Shown piece by piece: positions 3,993 to 20,886 of a DNA stretch of 21,525 bases. This stretch comes from Geobacter sp. Its GTDB lineage: Bacteria > Desulfobacterota > Desulfuromonadia > Geobacterales > Geobacteraceae. The number at the start of each line of letters is the position of its first letter. Positions within the stretch are counted from its first letter, which is position 1. Where the stretch lies: NCBI GenBank assembly GCA_003857395.1, contig RPRC01000131.1:1-21525 (forward strand), in the 5' to 3' direction. The position numbers and the translations under genes were made by a program. The notes beneath the pieces were generated by a model that was not told the origin of the DNA, did no database searches, and worked only from the letters and a program-made list of their open reading frames with translations.

Positions 3993-4050
3993 AATTACGC
4001 TGTATGCAAACAAACACTATTTTGAGATTTCAAGGAATTGATTGAGTCCC

Positions 4051-4824
4051 ATGCGTACTGCTATCCAGATACAGAAATCAGTCGTTTTTGCATTTTTCAT
4101 TAGGGAACTGAAAACCCGTTTTGGCAATTATCGACTCGGCTATTTATGGGCACTTCTCGAGCCATTGGGGCATGTGCTTGTAATTACAGTTATTTTTGGT
4201 GCTCTTGGACGTAGAACTATGCCTGGCATCGATTATCCGTTGTTCATCATAACCGGGCTGTTTCCGTTTTTGTTCTTTCGGCATGTTTGGACCCGCTCTG
4301 CCGAGGCTGTCAACTCCAACAGAGCACTGCTTGCTTATCGCTATGTTCAGCCCCTGGACAACATCTGGGCCAGGGTATTGCTGGAGTTGCTCATTTTTAT
4401 TGCCGGATTCGTTGTGTATTTGATTGGGGTAGCTGCTTTTGGAATACCTGTGCTGCCTCACAGGCCCCTTGAAGTATTGTGTGCGTATGCCTTGCTTTTC
4501 ATCTTTGCCATCGGGGTTGGCATCGTTTCGGGGGTCGTTTCAGCTATGTTCCCGGAAGTTAAAAAGTGCATCCCCTTTATAACCCGGCCGCTTTATTTCA
4601 TTTCCGGCGTATTTATTCCACTGTCAGTTGTGCCGGAACAGTATCGTGGTTGGCTATTGTGGAACCCCATTCTGCATGCCCTTGAACTGGCACGTGAGTT
4701 TTATTTTCCCTCTTTCCAAAATGCAGGTGCAACTTGGTACTATCTTGGATTGAGTGCCATGGTTTCTTTATGTTTCGGACTTGCCCTCTACCGACTCACT
4801 CGTTTCAAGTTGCTGGAATCATGA
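4051..4824 (+). CDS. kpsM: Capsule export ABC transporter permease KpsM
   Basis: Inner-membrane permease of the group 2 capsule exporter; with KpsT it moves lipid-linked capsule polysaccharide out of the cytoplasm. The product is an ABC-2 type membrane protein with about six hydrophobic segments. It carries family features such as RELKTRFGNYRLGYLWALLEP near the N-terminus, a RTMPGIDYPLF segment, RPLYFISGVFIPLS and LLWNPILHALELARE. I chose ATG at 4051 (257 aa) because the length and N-terminal alignment match E. coli KpsM (258 aa). An in-frame TTG at 4042 is closer to the AAGGA at 4032-4036 and remains possible. The gene overlaps kpsT by four bases (ATGA), implying translational coupling. First gene of the capsule operon. 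Confidence 0.93.
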   Translation: MRTAIQIQKSVVFAFFIRELKTRFGNYRLGYLWALLEPLGHVLVITVIFGALGRRTMPGIDYPLFIITGLFPFLFFRHVWTRSAEAVNSNRALLAYRYVQPLDNIWARVLLELLIFIAGFVVYLIGVAAFGIPVLPHRPLEVLCAYALLFIFAIGVGIVSGVVSAMFPEVKKCIPFITRPLYFISGVFIPLSVVPEQYRGWLLWNPILHALELAREFYFPSFQNAGATWYYLGLSAMVSLCFGLALYRLTRFKLLES

Positions 4825-5486
4825 TTGAGTTAAAGAACTTAACCAAATGGTACAAAACAAAGAAGGGGCGCCACTACGTGTTCCGAGACGTGAGCGTCGT
4901 GTTCCCCGAAGGAAAAAGCATCGGAATCCTAGGACCGAACGGTGCGGGTAAGTCTACACTCATGCGGATGATCAGTGGAACTGAGTATCCTAATAGCGGC
5001 CGTTTAATTACCAGTAAGAAAATATCCTGGCCGGTGGGGCTTTCGGGTGGCTTTCAGGGGAGCATGAGCGGTCGAGACAATATCAAGTTCATCTGTCGTA
5101 TCTATGGTTTATCACGTGATGAAATTCGTCAGAAGATTGACTATGTTCAGGAGTTCGCCGAAATCGGCGATTATTTCGATATGCCGGTAAATACGTATTC
5201 ATCGGGCATGAAGGGCAAGATCAGCTTCGGACTCAGCATGGCCTTTGATTTTGATTACTATCTCGTGGATGAATGTACATCGGTGGGAGATCAGACGTTC
5301 AAGCACAAGAGCAATAAATTGTTCGACGAGAAACGTCAGAAAGCAAACATTATCATGGTCTCCCACAGTCCAGAAGTGCTGATCCGTAACACAGATATCG
5401 GCGCGGTAATTCAAGACGGAAAAATAAACTTGTTGGATGACATTAAAGATGCGGCTAAATTCTATGGCAAAATCAATAAACGCTAA
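4821..5486 (+). CDS. kpsT: Capsule export ATP-binding protein KpsT
   Basis: Cytoplasmic ATPase subunit paired with KpsM. The 221-aa product has Walker A GPNGAGKST at residues 38-46 and an ABC signature of the KpsT/Wzt-lineage form (YSSGMKGK rather than LSGGQ). Walker B is LVDE in YYLVDECTSVGD, and the switch His is in MVSHSPE. Length equals that of typical KpsT (about 219-220 aa) and there is no carbohydrate-binding C-terminal extension. This places it with Kps systems and not with Wzt proteins that recognise a terminal sugar. The start at 4821 overlaps the kpsM stop. A longer in-frame reading back to 4734 would run inside kpsM and is unlikely. The end overlaps the start of kpsE. Confidence 0.94.
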   Translation: MIELKNLTKWYKTKKGRHYVFRDVSVVFPEGKSIGILGPNGAGKSTLMRMISGTEYPNSGRLITSKKISWPVGLSGGFQGSMSGRDNIKFICRIYGLSRDEIRQKIDYVQEFAEIGDYFDMPVNTYSSGMKGKISFGLSMAFDFDYYLVDECTSVGDQTFKHKSNKLFDEKRQKANIIMVSHSPEVLIRNTDIGAVIQDGKINLLDDIKDAAKFYGKINKR

Positions 5487-6582
5487 TCTGTGGGAAAAAT
5501 GTTTCAAGCTGTCAAAGAGTTTTCTCTTGATTGTGGTTGTTCCATTTCTGCTGATTGCGATCTACTACGGCGTCATCGCTTCGCCTCGCTATGTCAGCGA
5601 ATCCAAGATCACGGTCAGACAGAGCGGCGGCGGCCAGGATGTGGGTTCTCTTGCGGTCAGTATCCTAAGCGGCGGTGGTTCATCATCCCGGGAAGATAAT
5701 CTATATCTGCGCGAATACATCCTGTCCCTCGACATGCTTCAATATCTCGATGCTTCGGTCGGGCTGCGAAAAGCCTATCAGGGGCGGGGAGACTATCTGT
5801 CGAGGCTCCTGCCGTGGGCAAGCCAGGAAGACTTCCTCAACTTTTATCGAAAACATGTTTCGGTGAATTACGATGCCGTGACCGGTGTTCTGACCATTCG
5901 CACCGAAGCGTTTGATCGCGCTTTCGCCCGCCGGATGAACGCCGCCATCATGTACCAATGCGAAAAATTCATCAATGACAACTCCCACCGCATATCCAAT
6001 GAACAGCTACGCTTCATCTCCAGCGAGTTGACTCGCGCCAATGAGGAGTTACTGGCGACGAAGCAAAAGGTGCTTGCCTTCCAGAACCGCCACAATGTGC
6101 TTGATCCGGTCGAACAGGCAAAGGCCATGTCGGCATTTGTGCTTCAACTGGAAGCCGAAGTGGGTCGCCAGGAAGCCGAACTTAGAAACATGCGGACATT
6201 CCTTGCGGAAAACTCGACCCAGGTTGTTGCCTTTCGCGAAAAACTGGGAGCACTCAAACAGCAGTTGCAGAACGAAAAGCAGAAGATATCGGGAGGGCCG
6301 GCCGGCAAACTGAACACGATGTCAAGCCAGTTCATGCTCCTGCAGTTTCAGGCGGAGTTCGCCCTTGATAAATACAAGGCCACTTTGGCTGCCTACGAGA
6401 AGGAGCGGGTAGAGGCATCGCGCAAGGTAAAGAACCTTGTCGTCATAAGTTCGCCCCATCAGCAGGAAGAGGCTGAATATCCCAGACGACAGTATATAAT
6501 TTTCGCCTCGCTGGTCGGGCTGCTGATCCTCTACGGTATCTCCAGACTTATCATTGCCACTATTGAAGATCATAAGGATTGA
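5464..6582 (+). CDS. kpsE: Capsule polysaccharide co-polymerase KpsE (PCP-3)
   Basis: Inner-membrane protein with a large periplasmic domain that links the KpsMT transporter to the OPX protein KpsD. There is an N-terminal membrane segment (about residues 18-38), then RYVSESKITV, a long periplasmic helical/coiled-coil region with HRISNEQLRFISSEL and NRHNVLDP, the VVISSP motif, and a C-terminal membrane segment ending in IATIEDHKD. All of these parallel E. coli KpsE (382 aa). I place the start at ATG 5464 (372 aa), overlapping kpsT by 23 bases. In-frame ATGs at 5437 and 5449 are alternatives, and none has a clear Shine-Dalgarno sequence, consistent with coupling to kpsT. kpsD follows three bases after the stop. 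Confidence 0.93.
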   Translation: MAKSINANLWEKCFKLSKSFLLIVVVPFLLIAIYYGVIASPRYVSESKITVRQSGGGQDVGSLAVSILSGGGSSSREDNLYLREYILSLDMLQYLDASVGLRKAYQGRGDYLSRLLPWASQEDFLNFYRKHVSVNYDAVTGVLTIRTEAFDRAFARRMNAAIMYQCEKFINDNSHRISNEQLRFISSELTRANEELLATKQKVLAFQNRHNVLDPVEQAKAMSAFVLQLEAEVGRQEAELRNMRTFLAENSTQVVAFREKLGALKQQLQNEKQKISGGPAGKLNTMSSQFMLLQFQAEFALDKYKATLAAYEKERVEASRKVKNLVVISSPHQQEEAEYPRRQYIIFASLVGLLILYGISRLIIATIEDHKD

Positions 6583-6585
6583 TCC

Positions 6586-8283
6586 ATGAAACAAGCATTT
6601 GCCCTAGTCGTTGCACTCTTGATTTTATCCCTCGGCATTACCGTTACGGCCGCACAACTGCCGAGCAGACCGTTGTCAGGCCCAGATGCGACATATGTTA
6701 ACAAGTCGGACTCAATGTCCATGACTTCGCCATCGGCATTGACATCCACATCCACTTCCACATCCTTGACGGAGCCCCAAACGATTATGCGGCAACGTAT
6801 CACCTGTGAGCCGTTTGGCTGTTTTCTCTTTGATGGGGATTTTGCCACCGAAAAAACCCCTGTTTTCAGTCCCGAATACGTAATTGCCATTGGAGACAAG
6901 ATCAATATCAAGATATGGGGAAGCGTTGAATTCGAACAGATTCAGTCCGTGGATGCCCAAGGCAACATATTTCTTCCTAAGGTCGGTCCTGTTTCGGTAC
7001 TTGGGGTGAAAAACCGGGAGTTGACCGCCACCATATTGCGGGTGCTGCGCACCGTCTACATAAACAATGTGGGCCTTTACGCGGGTCTGCTCGAAACCCA
7101 GCCTGTTATCGTCTACGTAACAGGCGGTGTAGTGCGTCCGGGCGCTTATGGCGGCACCTCAGCCAACAGCCTCATGTATTACCTGGACCGCTCGGGCGGG
7201 ATAGATGCGTCTTCCGGTTCCTACCTAGATATCTCCATAATCAGGGGAACGGAAAAGATCCGCACCTTCAACCTGTATGATTTCGTCCTTAGAGGCGAAG
7301 TCCCGGCATTTCAGTTTGCCGACGGCGATACCATCCTGGTGACTCCCCGCCGGCAGACGGTCAAGGTAAGCGGACTCGTGGCCAATCCTTATCGCTTTGA
7401 ATTCAACGGCGATTCCATCTACGCAAGTGAAATGCTCAGGATGGCCGCCCCCCGCTCCGAAGCGACCCACATGAGGGTCGTGCGCAACAGCCGCCCCACC
7501 CGCGACGTGGAAATATATCCCCTGCAGGCGGCACCGCAAACCACACTTTACGGGGGGGATGAAACAACTATTCTCTCCGATAAGAACAACGGAACCATCA
7601 CAATTCGTTTCGAAGGTGAGCAACTCGGCGCTCGGGAAGTGGCTCTACCCTACGGGGCACGACTCTCAGATGCTCTCGGCATGATCAAGTACGCGCCGAC
7701 GGCTGACAAAACAGCTGTGCAGCTTTTCCGCACCAGCGTGGCGTCAAGGCAAAAAGAAATGCTCCTTGAATCACTGCGCAATCTCGAAGCGTCAGTCCTG
7801 ACTGCCCGCTCCGCAACTGCGGAAGAGGCTAAGCTGAGAAAGGACGAGGCGGAGTTGTTCCTCAAGTGGATCGAGAGGGCCAAGGATATCCAACCCAAGG
7901 GGCAGGTAGTTATAGCCGGAGGCGACCCGAAAGGGATCATTCTGGAAAACGGCGACATCATCCGCATTCCTTCCGACAACGCCTTGGTCATGGTTCACGG
8001 CGAAGTCCTCTTTCCCAGTACCATTGCCTATCGTCCGGGTATGGACGTGTCCGATGCCATTGATCAGTCAGGCGGAAATTCCCAGTCGAAAGGCAGTTCA
8101 CGCATTGTGATTCTCAGTCGTGACGGCTCGTACAAGATTGCCGGTGCTGGAGAAACACTCAAGAAAGGCGACGAGGTTCTCGTGCTTCCCAAGGTTGAAA
8201 CGAAGTACCTCCAGTTTGCCAAGGATGTGATGCAGGTGCTTTATCAGATTGCCGTGTCGGCGGCGGTGGTGTTGAGGCTGTGA
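6586..8283 (+). CDS. kpsD: Periplasmic/outer-membrane capsule export protein KpsD (OPX)
   Basis: Polysaccharide export protein that forms the periplasmic-to-outer-membrane path with KpsE. The 565 residues compare with 558 in E. coli KpsD. The N-terminus is a clear Sec signal peptide (MKQAFALVVALLILSLGITVTA, cleavage probably before AQ). No lipobox Cys follows it, as in KpsD and unlike Wza. A Ser/Thr-rich linker (about residues 45-65) is encoded by hexamer repeats. Then comes the polysaccharide-export domain (SPEYVIAIGDKINIKIWG, DAQGNIFLPKVGPVSV) and SLBB-like beta-grasp repeats (VYVTGGVVRPGAYGG; VSGLVANPYRF; VMVHGEVLFPSTIAY). AAGGA ten bases before the ATG supports the start. A hydrophobic C-terminus follows the last domain. 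Gap to kpsF is 61 bases. Confidence 0.93.
   Translation: MKQAFALVVALLILSLGITVTAAQLPSRPLSGPDATYVNKSDSMSMTSPSALTSTSTSTSLTEPQTIMRQRITCEPFGCFLFDGDFATEKTPVFSPEYVIAIGDKINIKIWGSVEFEQIQSVDAQGNIFLPKVGPVSVLGVKNRELTATILRVLRTVYINNVGLYAGLLETQPVIVYVTGGVVRPGAYGGTSANSLMYYLDRSGGIDASSGSYLDISIIRGTEKIRTFNLYDFVLRGEVPAFQFADGDTILVTPRRQTVKVSGLVANPYRFEFNGDSIYASEMLRMAAPRSEATHMRVVRNSRPTRDVEIYPLQAAPQTTLYGGDETTILSDKNNGTITIRFEGEQLGAREVALPYGARLSDALGMIKYAPTADKTAVQLFRTSVASRQKEMLLESLRNLEASVLTARSATAEEAKLRKDEAELFLKWIERAKDIQPKGQVVIAGGDPKGIILENGDIIRIPSDNALVMVHGEVLFPSTIAYRPGMDVSDAIDQSGGNSQSKGSSRIVILSRDGSYKIAGAGETLKKGDEVLVLPKVETKYLQFAKDVMQVLYQIAVSAAVVLRL
6742..6765 (+). repeat. Hexanucleotide repeat within kpsD
   Basis: Four copies of ACATCC (one with ACTTCC) in tandem, encoding alternating Thr/Ser in the linker after the signal peptide. 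Copy-number change would alter linker length without shifting the frame. Confidence 0.6.
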
Positions 8284-8320
8284 TCAAAGGCCTAGCTGAA
8301 TTAACAGTTTTTGCATAACG

Positions 8321-8337
8321 AAAATCGATTTTAGGAG
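8321..8337 (+). promoter_or_regulatory. AAAATCGATTTT palindrome abutting the kpsF Shine-Dalgarno sequence
   Basis: A 12-base perfect palindrome (8321-8332) is immediately followed by AGGAG (8333-8337) and the kpsF ATG at 8345. The Shine-Dalgarno assignment is good. Any regulatory role of the palindrome is speculative. Confidence 0.4.
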
Positions 8338-8344
8338 TAAGCGA

Positions 8345-9319
8345 ATGTTTGAAACCGTAAGATTATTGAGAAGAGAAGATTTTATTGACCACACCGAAAT
8401 TGCAAGGGAGGCGCTTATAGCGCAATCGATAGCAGTAAAATCTCTGGCGAACCGTCTTGGGGATGAGTTCTACCAGGCAGTCGAACTGATACTCAATTGC
8501 TCCGGACGTTTAGTTATCTGCGGCATGGGTAAGTCTGGATTAGTCGGGAAAAAAATCGCTGCAACATTTGCTTCAACTGGTACGACAAGTTTCTTCATGC
8601 ATCCAGCCGAAGCATTGCATGGTGACCTTGGGATGATTAGGCAAGAGGATCTGTTGGTCCTGATCTCATACAGTGGGGAGACTGAAGAGGTCATTAAACT
8701 CATTCCCAGCATTAAAGCTTTTGGCAATAGCATTATCGCAATTGCCGGAAACAGCAACTCAACATTAGCGAAAAATTCTGACGTCTTTTTGAATGTCTCA
8801 GTCGAACGTGAGATTTGTCCAAACAATCTCGCACCTACCACATCGACTCTAGTCACGATGGCGATCGGTGATGCTTTGGCCGTAGCACTCATAAAAGCAA
8901 GAGACTTCCATGCAACTGATTTTGCCCGTTTTCATCCGGGTGGCAGCTTGGGTAAACGATTGTTGACGCGCGTACATGATGTTATGCGTACCAACCTGCC
9001 ATCCATCGAACCGAACGCCACCGTGCGAGAATGTTTATTCACCATGACTTCAAGTCGTATGGGGTTGGCGTTAATAATGACCGATGGGAAGTTGCAAGGT
9101 ATTATAACCGACGGTGACTTGCGACGTGCTTTGCTGAAAGATCCCCAAATGCTTGAAAAGCCCGTAAATGTGTTCATGACTCGTAAACCAGTAACGATCG
9201 ATGCAGAGACTAATCTTGCCGAGGCGGAAGCTTTTATGCACCGAAATAAAGTCCGTGCACTTGTGGTTACATCAGGAAAAGAGAACCAAGTATGTGGAAT
9301 ATTGGAAATATTCGATTGA
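8345..9319 (+). CDS. kpsF: D-arabinose 5-phosphate isomerase KpsF/KdsD
   Basis: Converts D-ribulose 5-phosphate to D-arabinose 5-phosphate, the first committed precursor of Kdo. The 324-aa product has an N-terminal SIS sugar-isomerase domain (about residues 35-180) with GMGKSG at 60-65, the active-site region HPAEALHGDLG at 86-96 and SYSGETEE. Two CBS domains follow (about 210-324; VMRTNLPSIEPNATV, then FMTRKPVTIDAETNL). Length and layout match KpsF/KdsD (about 325 aa). An AGGAG seven bases upstream (8333-8337) supports the start. The position inside the capsule operon favours the capsule-specific name kpsF. With kdsA and the two CMP-synthetase genes it completes most of the Kdo supply route in this window. 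The 3' end overlaps the next gene by 28 bases. Confidence 0.95.
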   Translation: MFETVRLLRREDFIDHTEIAREALIAQSIAVKSLANRLGDEFYQAVELILNCSGRLVICGMGKSGLVGKKIAATFASTGTTSFFMHPAEALHGDLGMIRQEDLLVLISYSGETEEVIKLIPSIKAFGNSIIAIAGNSNSTLAKNSDVFLNVSVEREICPNNLAPTTSTLVTMAIGDALAVALIKARDFHATDFARFHPGGSLGKRLLTRVHDVMRTNLPSIEPNATVRECLFTMTSSRMGLALIMTDGKLQGIITDGDLRRALLKDPQMLEKPVNVFMTRKPVTIDAETNLAEAEAFMHRNKVRALVVTSGKENQVCGILEIFD

Positions 9320-10434
9320 GAAATATCCTTTTATTTTTGATCGTTACCTTATATGCGACCTCAGCGTTTGCAGGCGATGTATGTCCGGAAACGCTTCCGG
9401 CGGTAGTACGTGGTGACGTTACCTTACCGGAAGGGTGTGTGTTTGAGCAGTCCATAAATATAATCGATAGCAATACTTCGCTCAATTGCAATGGGTCGGT
9501 TTTTGATGGAAAGGGCAAAGACAAGATAGGCTTGCTTATCGATTCTAAAGGTAATCCGTTAACAAATATCAAAGTGGAAAACTGTGTTTTCAGAAATTTC
9601 AAATCGAGTGGAATACGCATTAGCTGGTCCGAGGTGGATGCGCGAAAAGGAACGGATCACGAAAAAATATACTCGGTTAGCCCGAACAGCATTTTTTTGG
9701 ACAAGATCATAATAGAGGGTAGTGGTGGTGTTGGGTTGTACATTGACGATTATGTAACCAATGTAACTGTGCAAAATTCAGTTATTCAGCGTTCCTCCGG
9801 AGTTGGTATCTATCTTGAGCATAGTTCAAAAGGAAACAGGATAGTTAACAATAAGTTACTTGAAAATGGATATCGAGTCGGCAAGGGGGCTCGTGAGGCA
9901 ATTGCTGTTGATTCTTCAGCAGAAAACCTCATTGACGGGAATATTTTTAAAAATAATGCGGCGGGCGGTATATTCCTTTACAAAAACTGTGGTGAACGTT
10001 TCAGCAGCGGCAAGCAGGTTATCAGGTGGCAGCATAGTAGCCACAACACGATCCGCAACAACCTATTCCAAGACGAGAAAGTCGGAATCTGGCTGGCTTC
10101 GCGCCAAAGTCGCAACCTCAGCAAATGGGACTGTGGTGATAAGCCGATGGATCAAGCCGGAAAATACTTCGAGGATTTCGCAGACTCAAATACCATTTAC
10201 AACAACCTCTTCTGCAGAACTGTTGTTGGAATCCGTGTCGCCAGTGACCTCAATGAGATCACTGGAAACCAGTTCGATCAACAGACTGCTACCGATATAG
10301 ACATACCGGTAACAATGAGAGAAAAATTGCTGCATCGACCCCATATTGGAAATATCATCACCAACAATTCAAAAGTTAATTGCAGAGAAACTGAGATCTG
10401 TAAAACCATGGAGCAAATGAATGCAAAAAACTAA
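9292..10434 (+). CDS. Secreted right-handed parallel beta-helix protein
   Basis: Predicted exported protein of 380 aa. Residues 1-27 form a signal peptide (hydrophobic NILLFLIVTLYATSAFA, cleavage before GD). The rest shows the short repeats typical of parallel beta-helix (PbH1/NosD-like) folds: NCVFRNF, NSVIQRSSGVGIYLEHS, NRIVNNKLLENG, NLIDGNIFKNNAAGGIFL, NTIRNNLFQDEKVGIWLA, NTIYNNLFCRTVVGIRVA. It contains many Cys residues, suggesting disulfides in the periplasm. Folds of this kind occur in polysaccharide lyases, C5-epimerases and carbohydrate hydrolases, so a capsule-trimming or capsule-modifying role is a reasonable inference, but no catalytic motif is identified. It overlaps kpsF by 28 bases and the next gene by 14, so it belongs to the operon. 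AGGAAAAGAGA lies before the ATG. Confidence 0.8.
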   Translation: MWNIGNIRLRNILLFLIVTLYATSAFAGDVCPETLPAVVRGDVTLPEGCVFEQSINIIDSNTSLNCNGSVFDGKGKDKIGLLIDSKGNPLTNIKVENCVFRNFKSSGIRISWSEVDARKGTDHEKIYSVSPNSIFLDKIIIEGSGGVGLYIDDYVTNVTVQNSVIQRSSGVGIYLEHSSKGNRIVNNKLLENGYRVGKGAREAIAVDSSAENLIDGNIFKNNAAGGIFLYKNCGERFSSGKQVIRWQHSSHNTIRNNLFQDEKVGIWLASRQSRNLSKWDCGDKPMDQAGKYFEDFADSNTIYNNLFCRTVVGIRVASDLNEITGNQFDQQTATDIDIPVTMREKLLHRPHIGNIITNNSKVNCRETEICKTMEQMNAKN

Positions 10435-13400
10435 GCGACTCTTCAAGAAATTTGTAAGGTCCCCTATTCAGTTCTTTGCTGATGCCAGGAAAAATCGGCT
10501 GAGGAGGCTTAAAATAAAATCCATTCCAACAAATGGAAATGTCATAACAACCTATGTAATTGGTTTCAGTACCTGGAAGCAATACCTGAGAAAATATTTT
10601 CCGGATCGTAACTTAGTTTTCTTGCCGAAAGAAATTAGCCGCGAGGAATTCGACGCCCTCTACCGGAAAAAGATTTTGGCTAGCCCAGATGCGGAAATCT
10701 TTATCTGGGGTTTCAAGGCACCCGACTACCTGCTCAAATTCATCGAAAAAAACAACATCAAGGTCTTTTTTGTCGAGGATGGCTTTGTCCGCTCGGTTCA
10801 GTTGGGCGCAACCAAAGCCCCACCTTTCTCGCTCTGTCTGGATTCTCGCACCCCTTACTTCAATGCACGCCAAGGATCTGATCTAGAGGAGTTGCTTTGC
10901 AAGTATGATTTTAATTCCGATCCGACATTGATGGAACGCGCAGGCGAGGCTATTAAGTTGCTTCTGGACACAGGGGTAAGCAAATATAACAGTGCCAAAC
11001 CAACTGATGTTGATCGAATTTACGGCAAGAAAATTGGCAAGCGCATCTTGGTACTGGGACAGGTTGAGGAAGATGCCTCGATCGAGTATGGCTGCGACAA
11101 ACCCTGCACCAACAACGACGTAGTGGTACTGGCTGCAAAGGAAAACCCCGGTGCTCAGATCATTTACAAACCGCATCCAGATGTCATTAACGGGCATCGT
11201 CCAAACCAATCCAACCCTGCTGATGTTAGGCAGTTATGTTTGATATTGGAACAAGATATACCATTGGCGCAGGCATTTGCGACCATCGACCATGTATATA
11301 CCATTACTTCCCTAGGTGGTTTTGAGGCTTTACTGCGTGGTATTTCAGTAACTACTTTAGGCTGTCCATTCTACGCAGGATGGGGCCTCACAGATGATCG
11401 CCAGTTCAATTCCCGCCGTACTCGACCGCTTAACATTCAACAAGTCTTTGCTGGTGCATATCTGTTGTATGCAAAATATTTTGATCCTGAAACGGGAGCG
11501 CGTCTGGAACTTGTTGACGTAGTCCGTACCCTCCTACACCAAAAGAATGAATCCTTGGTATTAGCTGCCAATCATGGAGTGAACAAACTGTCAGCAATTG
11601 CCGATAATACATCTATTCCAACTTACATTATTGGTGATACGTCTTATAAACACTTACTAAGTATATGGTTTCCTGGTCGTAAGTTTGTCCATATTCCCTC
11701 GAAGGTATCCCCTGAAGAGTTTATATCAAAATATAAAAAGAGAATTCAACGCAATCCGCAGGCCGAGATATTCCTATTTGGCGGTGAGCCGGCTTTATTT
11801 CTAAGAAAGTTCATAGCACAAAGCGATCGGAAGGTTAGCTATGTTGAGGATGGTTTCCTTGGTTCACGGGGTCTGCTGGCCACGAAATCACCATCATTCT
11901 CGCAGACGCTTGATAATCAAGCTCCCTATTTTGATGCAAGTAAGACTTCGGACCTGGAATGTTTGCTCAACGAGTATGATTTTGCCGGGGATGAGGCACT
12001 GTTAGAGCGTGCCGACAAATTGATTGCAACCCTGATCGAATTGGGATTAAGCAAATACAACCATGTGAGCCGGATTGATGACATCCAGTCCATTTATGGT
12101 TCAAAGGAGAAACGCCGGATTTTGGTGCTGGGTCAGGCGGAAGGCGAAGCCTCAGTCAAACTTGGCAATCCGCGCGGATACACAAACAACGATGTGGTGA
12201 TGATTGCGTCATTAGAGAACCCTGGTGCTCAAATTATCTTCAAGCCACATCCGGACGTCTTAAGTAGGCACCGGTCTGCTATGTCCGACCCCGGCAAAGT
12301 GAAGCATCTTTGTTTGGTGATGGGACAAGATGTCCTGTTGGACCAAGCACTGGAAACGATAGACCACGTCTATACAATTACATCTCTGGCAGGTTTCGAA
12401 GCACTTATACGGGGGATCAAGGTGACAGTCCTTGGGTGTCCATTCTACGCTGGCTGGGGCCTGACGGATGATCGGCAAGAGAATGCTCGCCGCAAGCGAA
12501 AGCTCTCATTGCGTGAAGTTTTTGCAGCAGCCTATGTGTTGTATTCGAAATATGTAGATCCACTATACAGGATGGAAATTTCACCGGAGGTCGCTTTTGA
12601 CCGTATTAGTAACCAATATAATCAACTGCTGCAAGCCAAAAGGAAATCTGAGGAAATTCGATCGGCAAGCAACGCAATAAAAAATTTAAATAATGACTCT
12701 GCGATAGAGTTTCTGAAAACCGCCCTGCTTAACGGCCAGAATAATTGTGATATTTGGAATGGGTTAGCTGAAGCCTATACAAACAAGGGTATGTACAACG
12801 AAGCCATAGATGCCTACACGAACTCACTCACACATTCTGAAGGTGCTGATATTTACTTAAAAAGAGCAAAAGTAAGACTCAAAAGCGGCGACTTTTCTCA
12901 AACAACAGATTACGATTTTAAAAAGAGCCTTGAGATGTCCCCGACGAAGAACGACATTTTATATTCGTACTTTTCTTACCGTTGGGAGGCCGAACCGCTC
13001 ACGGAAAATATGATGAGAGATTTTGAATCTGCTTTGAACAATCTCTCATCCAAGCAAAAAGAAGGAAGGGCATATGGAAAGCTGCTGCTTCTTTATGCTG
13101 CCATGTTGAATGAAATTGGCAGAAAAACGGAAGCAACAAAAATACATAATCGCGCCATTAGCATGGGAGGTGTCGATGTGACGCTGCTTCCTTTGCGATA
13201 CACTGCTTATGGTAAGGGCAATAACAAAGCAGTAACTCCCTTTGAGGCTGAGAACTTTAAGAAGCTACTCAAATACCGAGAACGTTTTAAGGAGTTGGTG
13301 CTTGATGCCAGAGGGTCTGTATGTGTTGTGGGAAACTCCCCAAGCATGTTGGGCGGTAACAAAGGGGCTGAAATTGACCAGCGTGATTTAGTGGTTCGTT

Positions 13401-15097
13401 TCAACTCTTATTCTACTGATTACCCATATTGCGAAGATTGCGGAGTTAAGACAGATGTCTGGGTACGAATGCCATTCCATCCATATGTTCGAAAAGAGTT
13501 GGATCCAGCGCTTAAACTTGTAATCTTCAGCGGATCCAATCGCTTGCATCGCCCCTATACCGAGTGGCCAAGTATATTAGAGTATGTGGCTTCCGGTTAT
13601 CCGGTTCAGTTCTTCCCTCCTGAATACTTTTATGAATTGCAATCTATGCTGGGTAGTCCGCCAACCTCCGGGTTGATGATGTGCTATATGCTTTATAAGA
13701 TAATCGGACCACTGAAGCCTGAGAATTATTGTGGCTTTTCCTTTACTGATGATGTTGATCATAAGAGCGCTTACCATTATTCAGATCTAAATGCTTCCGC
13801 TAGCCTGCGGCACAGTTGGGATAAAGAAGCGGAGGTTTTTAAGGGAATGAAAGCCGCACCCAACGCTAAGGTACTAGTGACAAGAACTCTCCTTTTCCGC
13901 CAAAATGCACACGACTCAGAAACAAGAGAGCAGCTGCAACCGGCAGTACAAAAAGATTTTGCTGTAAATAAAACTGAATTCGATCGTGTAATTTCTGTTT
14001 CCCCTGGGTTGGGGGAATATTCGGTGTTCGGTAAGTCAGTTGAACTTTTGAGCCCAGCTAAAGCTGAGAAACACTTGGCATTATTAAGAGGGGAAAAAGG
14101 TGGCGAAGAAAGCAGTATTTTATCAGGGATTGGAAGTAGTGACAGAGTATGCTTCTTAGGTTTTGGACGTGCCCGAACAGGGATAATAGCTCAGGATTTG
14201 GCAAATTATCTCAACGTGCACTACCGCTTGGTGGAGTATGGTCTGATTTCTTCGATGCATTTACCATCTGAAAAACAATACAATTTTTCTCTTATACTGG
14301 ATGATCGAGGAATATTTTATGACACCACCAGGCCTTCATTGATTGAAGAAATTCTGTTTAACAATGAATCAATCAGATCTGAGTTTACGAAGACCCGCTC
14401 AAAAAAACTCATTCGAATGATTGTTGATAACAATATCACCAAGTACAATAATTCGCCTGACATTACCCTTCCGGAAAAGAGCTCGTCCAAAAAACGAATA
14501 CTTGTAGTTGATCAGACTGCCAACGATAACTCGATTATATATGGCCAGTGTTCCAGATATAGTTTCAAAGATATGCTGGATGAAGCACTGCAGGATTATA
14601 ATGCTGAAGTGATATTGAAACTTCACCCCGAAACTGCGGCAGGAGCGAAGGGGGGCAATTTTGACTTAGCCGAAATATCGGCTGATCCACGTATCTTGGT
14701 TATCAGCCAGCAATGCAACATAATTTCACTGATCAAGCAAGTTGACGAAGTTTTTGTGATGACGAGTGGAGTCGGTTTGGAAGCACTTCTGGTTGGAAAG
14801 CCAGTAACCTCTTTTGGAGTGCCTTTCTATGCTGGCTGGGGTTTGACCAAGGAAATGACTGAGGTCCATAATCCAAGAAGAAAACTAACCCTGGAAGAAC
14901 TCTTTGCGGGTGTCTTTTTAGAATATACCAGTTATTTTCATCCCGATTCGCATGCCGCGAGCAACCTTGAAGAATGCCTGGAGTGGATTATCGCTCATAA
15001 AAACATTACCACAAGTATCGTAACGGAGGACCAAAATGAAGAACGATCAGATACAAGTTTTGGATTGTACAATGCGAGACGGCGGATACTACAATGA
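10421..15097 (+). CDS. Multi-domain capsule glycosyltransferase: KpsC-like modules, TPR, GT29-like
   Basis: A 1558-aa cytoplasmic fusion. Module 1 (about 20-370) and module 2 (about 395-740) resemble the C-terminal Kdo-transferase half of KpsC (GT107 type). They have EDG at 119-121 and 476-478, KPHPD with His 252 and 610, LGQ..DAS-type nucleotide motifs, SLxGFEAL and GCPFYAGWGLTDDR. Residues about 760-935 are TPR-like helices. About 960-1150 matches GT29 sialyltransferases: L motif (VCVVGNSPSM from 967, then GAEIDQRDLVVRFN), S motif (PPTSG at 1080-1084) and VS motif His-x4-Glu (H1131, E1136). Module 3 (about 1230-1530) resembles the N-terminal half of KpsC (GT99 type: DDRGIFYDTTRPS, ILVVDQT, HP at 1402-1403), but its EDG motif reads EYG (1272-1274). 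E. coli KpsC is about 675 aa with GT99 before GT107. Probably builds the poly-Kdo linker and adds a CMP-ulosonate-derived sugar. GGAG precedes the ATG. No frameshift seen. Confidence 0.85.
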   Translation: MQKTKRLFKKFVRSPIQFFADARKNRLRRLKIKSIPTNGNVITTYVIGFSTWKQYLRKYFPDRNLVFLPKEISREEFDALYRKKILASPDAEIFIWGFKAPDYLLKFIEKNNIKVFFVEDGFVRSVQLGATKAPPFSLCLDSRTPYFNARQGSDLEELLCKYDFNSDPTLMERAGEAIKLLLDTGVSKYNSAKPTDVDRIYGKKIGKRILVLGQVEEDASIEYGCDKPCTNNDVVVLAAKENPGAQIIYKPHPDVINGHRPNQSNPADVRQLCLILEQDIPLAQAFATIDHVYTITSLGGFEALLRGISVTTLGCPFYAGWGLTDDRQFNSRRTRPLNIQQVFAGAYLLYAKYFDPETGARLELVDVVRTLLHQKNESLVLAANHGVNKLSAIADNTSIPTYIIGDTSYKHLLSIWFPGRKFVHIPSKVSPEEFISKYKKRIQRNPQAEIFLFGGEPALFLRKFIAQSDRKVSYVEDGFLGSRGLLATKSPSFSQTLDNQAPYFDASKTSDLECLLNEYDFAGDEALLERADKLIATLIELGLSKYNHVSRIDDIQSIYGSKEKRRILVLGQAEGEASVKLGNPRGYTNNDVVMIASLENPGAQIIFKPHPDVLSRHRSAMSDPGKVKHLCLVMGQDVLLDQALETIDHVYTITSLAGFEALIRGIKVTVLGCPFYAGWGLTDDRQENARRKRKLSLREVFAAAYVLYSKYVDPLYRMEISPEVAFDRISNQYNQLLQAKRKSEEIRSASNAIKNLNNDSAIEFLKTALLNGQNNCDIWNGLAEAYTNKGMYNEAIDAYTNSLTHSEGADIYLKRAKVRLKSGDFSQTTDYDFKKSLEMSPTKNDILYSYFSYRWEAEPLTENMMRDFESALNNLSSKQKEGRAYGKLLLLYAAMLNEIGRKTEATKIHNRAISMGGVDVTLLPLRYTAYGKGNNKAVTPFEAENFKKLLKYRERFKELVLDARGSVCVVGNSPSMLGGNKGAEIDQRDLVVRFNSYSTDYPYCEDCGVKTDVWVRMPFHPYVRKELDPALKLVIFSGSNRLHRPYTEWPSILEYVASGYPVQFFPPEYFYELQSMLGSPPTSGLMMCYMLYKIIGPLKPENYCGFSFTDDVDHKSAYHYSDLNASASLRHSWDKEAEVFKGMKAAPNAKVLVTRTLLFRQNAHDSETREQLQPAVQKDFAVNKTEFDRVISVSPGLGEYSVFGKSVELLSPAKAEKHLALLRGEKGGEESSILSGIGSSDRVCFLGFGRARTGIIAQDLANYLNVHYRLVEYGLISSMHLPSEKQYNFSLILDDRGIFYDTTRPSLIEEILFNNESIRSEFTKTRSKKLIRMIVDNNITKYNNSPDITLPEKSSSKKRILVVDQTANDNSIIYGQCSRYSFKDMLDEALQDYNAEVILKLHPETAAGAKGGNFDLAEISADPRILVISQQCNIISLIKQVDEVFVMTSGVGLEALLVGKPVTSFGVPFYAGWGLTKEMTEVHNPRRKLTLEELFAGVFLEYTSYFHPDSHAASNLEECLEWIIAHKNITTSIVTEDQNEERSDTSFGLYNARRRILQ

Positions 15098-16655
15098 CTG
15101 GGACTTTGATCGAAATCTCGTTGAGGCGTATCTCCAGGCCTCGGCTGCCAGTGGGATCGACGTGGTCGAGTTGGGGTTTCGTTTTCTCCCGAAAGTAAAA
15201 TTTCTCGGGCCATACGCATATACCACCGAACGCTTTCTTGAAGGGCTTCCTATCCCGCAGGGTATAGTTCTTTGTGTAATGGTCAATGCAAGCGAATATC
15301 TCAACGCGCCGAAAGGACCAGAAGCCACAATTCGTGAAGTTTTCAGCAAAAGGGAAGATTCGAAGGTGGCAATGGTGCGAGTGGCTGCCCATGTAGCTGA
15401 CGTGGAAAAATGCGCTCCCATTGTTAAAACATTGCGGGATCTTGGGTATCGAGTGGGTTTAAACATAATGCAATCCAATGCCTGCAGCGATGAGCGGCTT
15501 GTTGACCTTGCTCGGGCCGTCCGCGAATTCGAGGCCGTAGAGGTGCTTTATTTCGCGGATTCCCTAGGCAACATGAATGCCGACTCCATCAGGCGAATTG
15601 TTGCAGCTTTGCGTAAAGAGTGGTTTGGACCTTTGGGTTTCCATGGACATGACAATGTTGGCACAGGGGTAAGCAACACATTAACTGCTGCCGAGGCTGG
15701 TGTAACATGGCTTGATGCCACCGTTATGGGCATGGGTAGAGGTGCCGGTAATGCGCAGACGGAATATCTTCTGGCGGAATTGAACCACCGGGGGTTGAAA
15801 AAGGTGAACCCTCCTCCGTTGATTGAGATTGCATGCAAAGGGTTCCTAGATTTAAAAAGACGCTATGACTGGGGAACAAATGTCTATTATTACATTGGCG
15901 CTTTGCATGGTGTACATCCTACTTATGTGCAAGATATGCTGGCACAGGATACGTTTTCGCCCAATGATATCGCTTTCATACTTGAAATGTTGGGTCAGAC
16001 AGGGGGTGCCTCCTATAAGGCCACAGGGGTTTTCAATGCGCTCACGTCCCGATTTGCTAAGGAAAATGGCAATTGGTCGGCTTGCTCTGCATTTACAGGT
16101 CGTTCAGCATTGATCGTTGCTGGCGGTCCGAGTGCACAGCGACATTGGCCAAGCATTGAAGAGTTCATTGAGCGGGAAAACCCACTGGTTGTTACACTGA
16201 ATCGACTATCCTTCGTACCGCAGAACACAGTCGCTGCAACGGCCGTTTGTCACCCTGGCCGACTGGTCCCATTTATTGATGAAACTGGGGACAACACTAG
16301 ACATCCACTTATCACACCATTTAGTGCATTACCCGCAAGTCTGAAATCTCGCCTGAAAGGACACGAGATCTGGGATTATGGTATGCGAGTAGAGCACAAT
16401 GCATTACGTGCGAGTGAAAAAGGTTGCACCGTGTCTCTACCGCTCGTGGCAGCTTATGCAATGTGTGCGGCAATCGCAGGAGGCGCGGAATCTATCTTCC
16501 TTGCAGGACTGGATGGATATGATGGCCGAGACAAGCGTTTCCATGAAATGAACAACATCATGTTGAAACTACAAAAAGAATATTCTGATGTTCCGATTCT
16601 GTCGCTTACATCTACACATTACGAAGTGCCCCAGCAGTCAGTATATATTCACTAG
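15036..16655 (+). CDS. HMGL-like (DRE-TIM) aldolase fused to a sialyltransferase-fold/DUF115-like domain
   Basis: 539 aa with two domains. Residues 1 to about 340 are a DRE-TIM metallolyase barrel like 4-hydroxy-2-oxovalerate/pyruvate aldolases: LDCTMRDGGYYNDW (R14, D15), and the metal-binding GFHGHDN with H203 and H205. GMGRGAGNAQTEYL also matches this family. Residues about 357-539 form a Rossmann-like domain (ALIVAGGPSA, VTLNRLSF, CAAIAGGAESIFLAGLDGYDG). It recalls GT42 sialyltransferases and the DUF115/Maf group. The likely chemistry is aldol addition of pyruvate to a sugar aldehyde, giving a 3-deoxy-ulosonic acid; this is inference. GGAGGA at 15025-15030, six bases before the ATG, is a strong ribosome binding site. 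The gene overlaps the end of the upstream transferase gene by 62 bases and is followed ten bases later by a CMP-ulosonate synthetase gene. The substrate is unknown. Confidence 0.8.
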   Translation: MKNDQIQVLDCTMRDGGYYNDWDFDRNLVEAYLQASAASGIDVVELGFRFLPKVKFLGPYAYTTERFLEGLPIPQGIVLCVMVNASEYLNAPKGPEATIREVFSKREDSKVAMVRVAAHVADVEKCAPIVKTLRDLGYRVGLNIMQSNACSDERLVDLARAVREFEAVEVLYFADSLGNMNADSIRRIVAALRKEWFGPLGFHGHDNVGTGVSNTLTAAEAGVTWLDATVMGMGRGAGNAQTEYLLAELNHRGLKKVNPPPLIEIACKGFLDLKRRYDWGTNVYYYIGALHGVHPTYVQDMLAQDTFSPNDIAFILEMLGQTGGASYKATGVFNALTSRFAKENGNWSACSAFTGRSALIVAGGPSAQRHWPSIEEFIERENPLVVTLNRLSFVPQNTVAATAVCHPGRLVPFIDETGDNTRHPLITPFSALPASLKSRLKGHEIWDYGMRVEHNALRASEKGCTVSLPLVAAYAMCAAIAGGAESIFLAGLDGYDGRDKRFHEMNNIMLKLQKEYSDVPILSLTSTHYEVPQQSVYIH

Positions 16656-16660
16656 GAGGT
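16654..16660 (+). promoter_or_regulatory. Strong Shine-Dalgarno deciding the CMP-synthetase start
   Basis: AGGAGGT sits five bases before ATG 16666. It rules out the longer in-frame start at 16588, which lies inside the aldolase gene. Confidence 0.85.
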
Positions 16661-16665
16661 TGCAG

Positions 16666-17397
16666 ATGCGATTTATGGTTGTGATTCCTGCTCGTTTTAA
16701 ATCCTCGAGATTCCCGGGTAAACCACTGGCAGATCTCTGCGGCCGTCCCATGATTCTTCATGTTTGGGACCGCTGTGCTGCTGCAGTCGGTAAGGATCAG
16801 GTTTGCATCGCTACTGACGACGAGCAGATTCGCAAAGTATGTACTGCGGCCGGTGCGAAAGTGGTCATGACCTCAGAAAAATGTTTTACCGGTACAGATC
16901 GCGTACATGAAACTGCCCGCATTCTGGATGCGGATATCTATATCAACGTCCAGGGGGATGAGCCCTTAATTGCATCTAGTGACCTGCTTGCGGTGATTGA
17001 AGCAGCGCGACAGTACCCTGGCGAAATAATAAATGCGATGTGCCCGATAACTATTGAGGAGGACTTCCGTAGTCTTACCGTCCCGAAAGTTGTTGCCACC
17101 CCAGACGGACGTCTTCTGTATATGTCTCGTGCGGCAATTCCCGGCAGCAAGGACGCCGGCTTTCATGGGGCAATGAAACAGGTATGTATTTACGCCTTCC
17201 CGAAGCAGGCCCTTGAAGCCTTTGCATCGATAGACAATCGTACTCCTCTTGAAGGTACGGAAGATATCGAAATTCTGCGTTTTCTCGAATTAGGATTTGG
17301 AGTGCGGATGATCGAAGTATCCGGAAGTTCCGTGGCTGTCGATACACCAGCAGACCTTAGCCGTGTGCAAAGCTTGATGAAAGGAAATATGCCATGA
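16666..17397 (+). CDS. Divergent CMP-ulosonate (KdsB-like) cytidylyltransferase
   Basis: Transfers CMP from CTP to a 2-keto-3-deoxy sugar acid. The 243 aa compare with about 248 for KdsB. It has the nucleotide-binding loop IPARFKSSRFPGKPL (7-21), ATDDEQI, the GTDRVHE motif, NVQGDEP with D98, and the C-terminal VDTPADL. It departs from KdsB where the sugar is gripped: canonical H-x-GIYGYR is KQVCIYAFP here, and the LE-x-IE-LEQLR segment is LEGTEDIEILRFLE. A separate canonical kdsB is present at 20883. This one is therefore likely to activate a different ulosonic acid, presumably the product of the adjacent aldolase; the substrate is inference. It overlaps the HAD gene by four bases (ATGA), consistent with a co-translated cassette. 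Confidence 0.85.
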   Translation: MRFMVVIPARFKSSRFPGKPLADLCGRPMILHVWDRCAAAVGKDQVCIATDDEQIRKVCTAAGAKVVMTSEKCFTGTDRVHETARILDADIYINVQGDEPLIASSDLLAVIEAARQYPGEIINAMCPITIEEDFRSLTVPKVVATPDGRLLYMSRAAIPGSKDAGFHGAMKQVCIYAFPKQALEAFASIDNRTPLEGTEDIEILRFLELGFGVRMIEVSGSSVAVDTPADLSRVQSLMKGNMP

Positions 17398-18053
17398 GTC
17401 GAACCTATGATTTTGCAGTGTTCGACTGCGATGGAGTCATTCTGCAATCAAATGCAATCAAATCGAATGCTTTTGCTGAAGCATTGACAGGTGAGCCTGA
17501 TGACCTGGTACAGGCTTTTGTGGAATACCATAAAGCTAATGGCGGAGTCTCGCGTTATCAAAAATTTGCACACTACTTCGAGAATATGCGTGGCATATCA
17601 TCACCTCAGGCTGAAATGGAGCGAGCTCTGAAACGATATGCAGAAATTGTACGGCAAGGTTTGATGAATTGTCCAACTATCCCTGGAGTGGAAAACTTCC
17701 TGATGGATCTTCACGTTAAAAGTATCCCGTGCGTGGTTAACTCTGGAGGCGATGAAGCGGAATTACAATCGGTTTTAGCCGCGCGAGAACTTGATAAATA
17801 CTTTGCATTAATTCTCGGTTCGCCAGCAACCAAAACGGACAACATGCGAAGACTAAGAGACCGTGGTTTTTTAATCGGTTCCGGAGTAATGTTCGGCGAC
17901 TCTCGTTCCGATTATCTGGCTGCTCAAGAGTTTGGCCTTGAATTCGTATTTGTGACATACGAAACGGAATGGAAAAAAGGCTTCAACGAATGCAAAATAT
18001 CTGAGTGTACCATTATACGCAATTTCCTAACGAATTCGCTACTCGTTAGTTGA
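17394..18053 (+). CDS. HAD-superfamily phosphatase, phosphoglycolate-phosphatase-like
   Basis: Predicted sugar-phosphate phosphatase of 219 aa. HAD motif I is FDCDGVIL with nucleophile D11 and D13. Motif II is VNSGGDE, motif III the Lys of TKTDN, and motif IV FGDSRSDYLAA. A helical cap region lies between motifs I and II (about residues 20-95), as in C1-type HADs. It is therefore not the capless KdsC type (about 170-190 aa). ATGA overlap with the CMP-synthetase gene puts it in the same cassette, where it could dephosphorylate an ulosonate phosphate or its sugar precursor. That role is inferred from context only. After the stop the DNA becomes degenerate with a broken acetyltransferase gene. 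Confidence 0.82.
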   Translation: MSRTYDFAVFDCDGVILQSNAIKSNAFAEALTGEPDDLVQAFVEYHKANGGVSRYQKFAHYFENMRGISSPQAEMERALKRYAEIVRQGLMNCPTIPGVENFLMDLHVKSIPCVVNSGGDEAELQSVLAARELDKYFALILGSPATKTDNMRRLRDRGFLIGSGVMFGDSRSDYLAAQEFGLEFVFVTYETEWKKGFNECKISECTIIRNFLTNSLLVS

Positions 18054-20043: not shown

Positions 20044-20886
20044 ATGAGCAAAATAGCAAAACATCTACAGTCAAAGAGCAGCCTCTTTTTCATCGCAGGA
20101 CCCTGTGCCATAGAAAGCCGCAGTTCTGCCATGGAAACCGCAGAGGAACTGAAAAACATCTTCGAATCGGCTGCTTTACCGTTCATTTACAAATCATCTT
20201 TCGACAAGGCAAATCGCAGTTCTTCAAACAGTTTCCGCGGTGTGGGGATGGATGAAGGCCTTTCAATCCTGGCCGAGATCCGTGAAAAACTCAACGTTCC
20301 CGTGTTGACTGATGTTCACGAACCTTGGCAGGCCAAACCTGTGGCCGAGGCGGTGGACATTATGCAGACACCCGCATACCTTTGTCGCCAAACCGATTTC
20401 ATCAATGCCGTGGCAGCTGCCGGCAAACCGGTAAACTTCAAGAAAGGCCAGTTTCTGTCGCCCTGGGACATGAAAAACGTCATCGACAAGGCTCGCTCTG
20501 CGGCAAGGGAAGCCGGGATGTCGGATGACCATTTCACCGTTTGTGAGCGTGGAACTTCCTTTGGTTATGGCAATCTGGTTGTGGATATGCGCGGTTTGCA
20601 GGTAATGGCTGATTCAACCGGATGCCCGGTTGTTTTTGACGCAACCCATTCGGTGCAGTTGCCTGGCGCCCAGGGCAGCAGCAGTGGAGGTCAGCGCGAA
20701 TTCGTGCCGCACTTGGCACGTGCAGCTGTGGCTACCGGTGCGGTATCCGGAATATTTCTGGAAACTCATCCTGATCCGGATAAGGCCCCATGCGACGGGC
20801 CGAATATGGTGGGATTCAAGGATTTGCCCAATCTGCTGGCCGAACTGAAGGGCATTTATAACCTGGTCAGAGGATCGAGACGATGA
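20044..20886 (+). CDS. kdsA: 3-deoxy-8-phosphooctulonate (Kdo-8-P) synthase KdsA
   Basis: Condenses phosphoenolpyruvate with arabinose 5-phosphate (the KpsF product) to give Kdo-8-phosphate. The 280-aa product has the complete family signature set: [62 protein letters not shown] and [13 protein letters not shown]. The Cys in GPCAIES (C21) replaces the Asn of the E. coli-type enzyme. With the His of DATH, the Glu of LETHPD and the Asp of CDGP it recreates the metal site known from Aquifex KdsA, so this is probably the metal-dependent class. A GAGGAA precedes the ATG by several bases. The stop overlaps the start of kdsB (ATGA). Confidence 0.97.

Follow-up and report, generated by a model that had tools for sequence, protein, structure and literature searches.

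What does a capsule gene cluster make with a single glycosyltransferase of 1558 amino acids (aa)? The question is raised by a contig of Geobacter sp. (RPRC01000131.1, assembly GCA_003857395.1; its 21,525 nucleotides are referred to here as the window), which carries a cluster for capsule export and for the supply of 3-deoxy-d-manno-oct-2-ulosonic acid (Kdo) around one gene whose product joins three KpsC-type modules, a TPR stretch and a GT29 domain (Table 1). A first-pass annotation had read this product as a reversed and expanded KpsC, working as a single-chain assembly line for capsule initiation. We conclude that the protein is real and intact, a multi-module capsule transferase that is conserved but rare and that extends the recently reported GT29-GT107 kind, and we favor a role in polymerization over one in initiation.

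Domain layout of the 1558-aa protein

The open reading frame (ORF) was confirmed to be real and intact. It starts with ATG and contains no internal stop, and 50 shuffles of its bases yielded no stop-free run longer than 176 codons, versus 1558 here. From the N terminus, the protein consists of two C-type GT107 modules (M1 and M2), a TPR region, a GT29 domain and an N-type GT107 module (M3), an order written C-C-GT29-N below. The GC content at the third codon position was nearly alike in M1, M2, GT29 and M3 (0.42 to 0.48). Pfam found PF05159 in three stretches (E = 6e-94) and PF00777 (GT29) at residues 968 to 1018 with 33.0 bits (cut-off, 23); a TPR match at residues 777 to 805 had 26.3 bits, slightly below the TPR_1 cut-off of 27.8. 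The profile-based limits were 41 to 380 for M1, 398 to 738 for M2, 956 to 1180 for GT29 and 1245 to 1525 for M3. The GT107 modules matched those of KpsC in sequence and fold, and the GT29 domain matched the curated profile and the fold of its family; the modules thus did not fall into unrelated families, and three KpsC-type modules, a TPR stretch and a GT29 domain lie in one frame, as had been claimed. No TagF-like transferase module was found in the Pfam or NCBIfam scans of the protein. According to an AlphaFold model of residues 740 to 1558 (mean predicted local distance difference test score, 85.9; predicted template modeling score [pTM], 0.55), this part folds into a TPR solenoid, a GT29 fold and a KpsC-type module. 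A TPR domain within a multi-module chain, the mark of TPR-containing capsule polymerases, is therefore present. Residues G971, N972, N995, H1119, D1122, H1131 and E1136 of the GT29 domain were invariant in 38 of 38 aligned sequences; we take these residues to belong to the sialylmotifs and to include the catalytic His.

The first-pass annotation had described KpsC as a GT99 half followed by a GT107 half and had assigned M3 to GT99. In print, both halves of KpsC are GT107, and GT99 is WbbB (PMC10148158, PMC12887879; papers are cited here from excerpts of their text). The layout that had been described thus stands, and the CAZy names given to it do not. M3 was not closer to WbbB than to KpsC by structure scores, and its GT99 identity was rejected in favor of an N-type GT107 module.

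Conservation of the module order

All architecture counts rest on the best 120 of 185 homologues; a further homologue list covered 120 of 691 matches. C-C-GT29-N occurred in five proteins, with the window protein (P0001) counted and two of the five cut at one end. The remaining architectures were C-N (33), C-GT29-N (18), C-C-N (12), C-C-C (10), C-C-GT29 (10), GT29-N (9), C-C-C-N (6), C-C-C-C (5) and other arrays (12). A Halomonas protein (P0002) had the same module order, with 50% identity across 97% of the length, and the full order was found in single open frames of isolates of Amphritea (L001, 1559 aa) and Vibrio (L003, 1548 aa). In a locus from a Planctomycetota metagenome-assembled genome (MAG; L002), GT29-N was a separate 909-aa protein. 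Two contigs are given for the window protein in the database. Because the order is kept in homologues, including the Amphritea and Vibrio isolates, it is not an assembly artefact, and the claim that C-type modules precede the N-type module in several genomes was borne out. A chance joining of neighboring genes, which the short contig might suggest, is refuted in practice by these independent isolates, by Halomonas P0002 and by the length of the stop-free run, and we give it next to no probability.

The GT29-N fusion is rare, since its sole carrier among the 369 genomes of the class of the Amphritea genome was that seed genome itself. Scanning genome contigs directly with P0001 as the sole query found no relative, and a DNA search of Escherichia coli genomes with the GT29-M3 stretch of the window gave no match. 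Ordinary KpsC, an N-type followed by a C-type module, was present in 62 of 80 fetched genome loci, where only frames of 590 to 740 aa were counted and KpsS-type frames parsed as N plus C (L081, L083 and L084) were left out. The window protein does not have this layout of about 670 aa. The Amphritea genome (G001) carried a 673-aa ordinary KpsC and a 434-aa KpsS-like frame on one contig beside the protein of the same type, and the Vibrio genome (G002) carried a 659-aa KpsC and a 408-aa KpsS-like frame besides its own; KpsS-like here means a single PF05159 module of about 400 to 430 aa, as opposed to a match to a KpsS-specific model.

In several C-N proteins, among them P0069 (residues 381 to 851) and P0101 (residues 361 to 936), a stretch of about 470 to 580 residues separates the C module from the N module. 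Pfam found PF05159 alone in these two, in three stretches each, and the intervening stretch may hold a diverged third module.

Module lineages and the catalytic state of the C modules

The origin of the modules was examined in a tree of 106 chosen modules, made by a quick method with the Shimodaira-Hasegawa-like approximate likelihood ratio test (SH-aLRT) as its only support; 42 of its 101 inner branches were weakly supported. The array C modules formed one side of a branch (SH-aLRT, 99), separate from the C modules of KpsC, and a single-module protein of Rhizobium (L015) grouped with them, including the M1/M2 lineage (99). M3 and the other GT29-linked N modules formed one group (100) on the side of the KpsC N modules (99). 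The architecture is thus reversed in that C comes before N, as first annotated; the idea that M1 and M2 are the C half of KpsC shifted forward was rejected on this tree. M2 grouped with modules two and three of P0003 and module two of P0035 (100), and M1 was nearest to the first module of P0003. M1 and M2 are 55% identical, and from their separate neighbors in the tree they probably split before the protein gained its present form. The three C modules of Ignatzschineria P0024 did not differ in any column used for the tree, which points to duplication in the very recent past, and P0010 also had several near-identical C modules.

For the residue counts, modules spanning less than 230 residues were left out, and a module was called intact when the equivalents of Glu66, Asp160 and His194 of KpsC were all present, a gap being taken as not intact; the counts are of related sequences, not of independent events. 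His194 is our own count on the printed sequence, as the text of PMC10148158 prints His94 and names the HP motif. M1 has all three residues (Glu119, Asp218 within QVEED, and His252), and both M1 and M3 have the QXXXD nucleophile, the HP histidine and the Glu66 base. M2 has Glu576 (QAEGE) at the position of the nucleophilic Asp, together with Phe for Trp42 and Leu for Gly76. The QXXXD Asp was present in every N and C module of ordinary KpsC (62/62 each), in the GT29-linked N modules (31/31) and in the other array N modules (52/52).

In 58 proteins with at least two C modules, the Glu-Asp-His triad was intact in 52 of 58 first modules and in 50 of 98 later ones. Later C modules in arrays thus appear often to lose the triad, a feature that looks new; nothing on inactive glycosyltransferase modules or pseudoenzymes in capsule polymerases was found in the open-licence literature. 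Patterns included active-dead-active in five proteins, active-dead-dead-active in four and alternation over five modules in two, and all counted modules were intact in 19 of the 58 proteins (12 with two modules, 6 with three, 1 with four and none with five). Modules without the Asp kept Glu66 in 13/58, Trp42 in 19/58 and Lys133 in 32/58 cases. Their sugar-contact residues were lost together, and their core fold positions were nearly fixed (for example, G314, P316, Y318 and W321 at 1.0).

M2 itself keeps 89 of 98 live-module positions, compared with 42 to 87 in the other 55 Asp-less modules and 80 to 98 in live ones. Since this is more than in any other Asp-less module, we do not hold it as certain that M2 is plainly dead. 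In P0002 and P0020, which have the architecture of the window protein, the Asp is kept in both C modules. The first-pass description of an expanded KpsC is therefore right as to the extra module; with the nucleophilic Asp gone from M2, as judged from sequence, the expansion need not add catalytic steps.

C-module arrays were also seen in P0010, P0036, P0038, P0060 and P0064, four of the five ending in GT29, with Halalkalibacter, Oceanobacillus and Halobacillus as the sources. These are Gram-positive genera, for which one would not expect a Kdo capsule.

Changed sugar contacts in M3

In KpsC, Trp42 and Asp67 are acceptor contacts, Tyr93 contacts O4 of the Kdo adduct, and Trp42, Glu66 and Asp67 are reported to be invariant in the two modules of all KpsC homologues (PMC10148158). 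M3 has the catalytic residues Asp1369, His1402 and Glu1272. Among the 31 GT29-linked N modules, the catalytic residues and Lys133/Tyr134 were kept in all, and position 42 was Phe (31), position 66 Glu (31), position 67 Tyr (30) or Phe (1), and position 93 Phe (31). Phe93 was found in none of 124 ordinary KpsC modules, which have Tyr or His there. Gly76 was replaced by Pro and Asp196 by Glu in 31/31. Within the window protein, positions 42 and 67 are Trp/Asp in M1, Phe/Asp in M2 and Phe/Tyr in M3, so that M1 alone has both KpsC acceptor contacts.

The N modules of C-N proteins without GT29 kept Asp67 and Gly76 in 33/33, had Tyr (31) or His (2) at position 93, and had Trp42 in 18 of 18 sequences where the column was filled (15 gaps). 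Because these proteins keep the contacts, the M3-type change goes with the GT29 partner and not with the reversed order. The M3 clade therefore seems to have kept its catalytic residues and changed its sugar contacts in a fixed way, which also looks new. A gene of Rhizobium phage RHph_X2_30 (MW980061.1, 22049-22759) was 33.6% identical to part of M3.

An aldolase-HAD-cytidylyltransferase cassette

Directly downstream of the 1558-aa gene lie an HMGL-type aldolase-like gene, a cytidylyltransferase gene (KdsB1) and a HAD phosphatase gene. The database copy of the aldolase has 527 aa, and its start may be at 15072. Its N half folds like 3dxi and DmpG-type aldolases; the modeled C half had no separate match among the best 50, which follow the aldolase half, and gave no evidence of a new fold. 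R14, D15, H203 and H205 were invariant in 46/46 sequences, and we presume for them the catalytic and metal roles of DmpG-type aldolases.

A relative of the aldolase was found in the fetched flank of 4 of 80 loci, exactly the four with a GT29-N unit (0/76 of the others), and the HAD gene likewise in 4 of 80. Neither gene was found in five loci whose GT29 relative stands alone. The three cassette genes were side by side by Pfam in L001, L002 and L003. In the class of the Amphritea genome, the aldolase occurred in 7 of 369 genomes. A cytidylyltransferase was near it in four further genomes by Pfam, in G069 by tblastn and in G001, and a HAD match was found in six of the seven, the exception being G167 with its 4.5-kb contig. 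Among 120 of 1691 aldolase homologues, contigs of matching length suggest that P0212, P0214, P0215, P0262 and P0277 are encoded alongside the GT29-bearing P0063, P0111, P0065, P0131 and P0130, respectively; the P0277/P0130 pair is from Henriciella, with tags 25020 and 25050. KdsB1 scores above both the PRK13368 and the NCBIfam kdsB cut-offs, and its counterparts in L001 to L003 pass PRK13368 and not TIGR00466. The position of the GT29-M3 unit beside this cassette suggests a second cytidine monophosphate (CMP)-sugar, and the association may be new.

In L128, an 887-aa protein (7758-10421, minus strand) with a glycerophosphodiester phosphodiesterase domain and a weak, sub-cut-off GT29 match adjoins another aldolase-cytidylyltransferase-HAD cassette.

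Proposed function and alternatives

The closest precedent, compared by description, is a dual GT29-GT107 ORF of E. coli K6, for which matrix-assisted laser desorption/ionization signals were consistent with a Kdo homopolymer, the structure being left open by the authors (PMC13171606). Like the window protein, it combines GT29 and GT107 in a single ORF within a group 2 capsule cluster and uses CMP-ulosonic acid donors; unlike it, it is dual-domain, with no M1/M2 array or TPR mentioned in the excerpt. The claim that the domain order was undescribed thus stands for the four-module arrangement, of which no description was found in the open-licence literature (subscription papers lying outside this scope), and not for GT29-GT107 as such. 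A 511-aa GT29 protein was also encoded next to GT2 in an E. coli plasmid capsule cluster (L104, 11059-12594); its gene was found in 7 of 5426 complete E. coli genomes.

KpsC shares with the protein the module fold, the QXXXD and HP motifs of M1 and M3 and the capsule cluster context. It differs in having two modules, N then C, in about 670 aa with no GT29 or TPR, whereas the window protein is C-C-GT29-N, with M1 and M2 of another lineage, M2 without the Asp and the contacts of M3 changed. Retaining GT107 enzymes form a covalent sugar-enzyme adduct, and linkage specificity reportedly lies in the N-terminal domain (PMC10148158). CpsD-type polymerases (PMC11666461; PDB 8qoy) likewise have several transferase modules and a TPR domain in one chain, and TPR truncation of CpsD stops primer elongation and makes the enzyme more distributive; their transferase modules are of other families (TagF-like, CgaT). 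PDB 8qoy ranked eighth in Foldseek for residues 740 to 1558, with a poor overall overlay (template modeling score, 0.11 to 0.14). In KrkA of E. coli K13, one chain also makes a Kdo-containing capsule repeat, but its GT140 has negligible sequence similarity to GT107 and its partner is a ribosyltransferase (PMC12887879). Rhizobial single-module proteins share the M1-type lineage (Rhizobium L015), and Sinorhizobium plasmid matches had about 44% identity; unlike the window protein, L015 is a frame without GT29 or N-type module. We take these relatives to be LpsZ/RkpZ-like, although they are not annotated so in our results.

On balance, we think that the protein is a single-chain cytoplasmic capsule polymerase that makes a chain of CMP-activated ulosonic acids, Kdo and probably another sugar of that class, for KpsMTED-type export. 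Polymerization is the likely task because Amphritea and Vibrio have a separate KpsC and KpsS-like protein for the linker, with a Planctomycetota MAG (G007) as an exception. KpsS and KpsC, encoded elsewhere, would make the usual lipid-Kdo linker, on which the serotype-specific polymerase would act. M1, with its full GT107 active site, would by homology add beta-Kdo through double displacement. M2, with Glu for the nucleophilic Asp, would probably not transfer efficiently and may hold or position the growing chain, the weakest step of the scheme. The TPR solenoid may aid elongation, by analogy with CpsD polymerases. Because GT29 enzymes are inverting and GT107 enzymes retaining, alpha and beta links would take turns in a chain built by GT29 and M3, provided that each can use the product of the other. 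GT29 would thus add an ulosonic acid in alpha linkage and M3 one in beta linkage, the changed donor and acceptor contacts of M3 suggesting substrates other than those of KpsC; the two acting in turn would give an alpha/beta repeat. The cassette genes may make the CMP-sugar for GT29, M3 or both, and the transporter encoded alongside would export the chain. A wider and more tentative possibility is that bacteria make poly-ulosonic-acid capsules with long modular chains, that working GT107 units alternate in them with copies that keep the fold but not the catalytic residues and hold the glycan, and that M3, as a specialized GT107, and GT29 polymerize a non-Kdo CMP-keto-sugar from a pyruvate-aldolase route instead of a phosphoenolpyruvate-dependent synthase.

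A doubtful alternative is a Kdo homopolymer synthase as proposed for E. coli K6, all modules using CMP-Kdo and the cassette being only an alternative Kdo supply. It has the K6 precedent, the KdsA, KpsF and two KdsB-type synthetases of the window and the cut-offs passed by KdsB1 on its side. However, the M3-type modules lost the Tyr93, Trp42 and Asp67 contacts in 31/31 cases, and it is hard to see why an aldolase-type route should exist in addition to the complete KdsA route if Kdo alone is needed. It is unlikely that the protein replaces KpsC as a single chain making the conserved lipid-linked Kdo primer. In favor of this reading, Pfam and the sequence matches to PDB class each of the three modules as KpsC-type, scanning the window frames turned up neither a separate KpsC nor a separate KpsS, and G007 has no other PF05159 match. 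Against it, M3 has replaced acceptor contacts reported to be absolutely conserved in KpsC, and GT29 has no role in the known linker. Initiation as the main role, including the assembly line first proposed, was rejected because ordinary KpsC and a KpsS-like frame co-occur with the protein in the Amphritea and Vibrio isolates. Quite unlikely, too, is a chain of fused modules that act separately and do not polymerize, the protein serving, for example, to decorate or terminate a glycan. The related beta-Kdo transferase WbbB does end its chain (PMC12887879), and the GT29-M3 part is a separate protein in Planctomycetota L002; yet scanning the window frames revealed no further glycosyltransferase family, leaving nothing else in view to make the chain, and the expanded array and the TPR domain resemble polymerases.

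Several observations weigh against a polymerase with a second sugar. In G007, which as a MAG may be incomplete, the only PF05159 match is the GT29-M3 protein; ordinary KpsC and KpsS are thus not always its companions. The window contig stops at 21525, and further transferases, KpsC or KpsS may or may not follow. The placement of the modules relative to each other is uncertain in the model (pTM, 0.55). The C module was degenerate in 9 of 18 C-GT29-N relatives, so it may not be a needed catalytic step. Gly76 to Pro and Asp196 to Glu are less telling than the other M3 changes because ordinary KpsC N modules show both (7/62 and 19/62, respectively, the latter also in 6mgb). As for the cassette, the 76 comparison loci comprised 53 of at least 20 kb, 13 of 10 to 20 kb and 10 below 10 kb, and a cassette lying farther away may have escaped notice. 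The HMGL family is broad, with 1691 matches, and its members are frequent in other settings. P0063 and P0111 have GT29 and no M3-type module, with aldolase relatives apparently alongside; the cassette may thus work for GT29 and carry no information on M3. As KdsB1 passes the NCBIfam kdsB cut-off, its product could be plain CMP-Kdo. No activity, product or sugar analysis for this protein family was found in the literature beyond the K6 report.

These data offer natural experiments in the GT107 family, namely, modules that kept the fold and lost the nucleophile and a clade that kept the catalytic residues and changed its sugar contacts. They would extend the single K6 report to a modular class found in proteobacteria and, judging from source names, in halophilic Bacillota, and the cassette points to a candidate CMP-sugar pathway.

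Gene neighborhood in the window

The features of the window are collected in Table 1. The GSCFA-family gene had no tblastn relative in the 80 fetched loci.

Table 1. Features of the window and modules of the 1558-aa protein
Feature	Position	Strand	Remarks
KpsM-like ABC transporter permease	4042..4824	+	
KpsT-like ABC transporter ATPase	4734..5486	+	
KpsE/BexC/CtrB-like inner-membrane export protein	5437..6582	+	
Polysaccharide export (KpsD-like) protein	6586..8283	+	
KpsF/GutQ arabinose-5-phosphate isomerase	8345..9319	+	
Right-handed beta-helix protein	9292-10434		Directly upstream of 1558-aa gene
1558-aa glycosyltransferase, C-C-(TPR)-GT29-N	10421..15097	+	ORF, Pfam, profiles
M1, C-type (array lineage) GT107	10541..11560	+	Residues 41-380; catalytic residues intact
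M2, second C-type GT107	11612..12634	+	Residues 398-738
TPR solenoid linker	12638..13285	+	Residues 740-955; Pfam, structure model
GT29 (sialyltransferase-fold) domain	13286..13960	+	Residues 956-1180
M3, N-type GT107	13985..15007	+	Residues 1189-1529; catalytic residues kept, sugar contacts changed
HMGL-type pyruvate aldolase-like protein	15036..16655	+	539 aa
KdsB/KpsU-like cytidylyltransferase (cassette)	16588..17397	+	Family match from residue 27
HAD phosphatase (cassette)	17394..18053	+	
GSCFA-family gene	18460-19695		
KdsA, Kdo-8-phosphate synthase	20044..20886	+	
Second CMP-Kdo synthetase (KdsB)	20883..21525	+	Cut by contig end

In two Thiothrix loci (L024, 8464-9561; L066, 70-936), relatives of the beta-helix protein are encoded immediately ahead of a stand-alone GT29 gene and KpsC.

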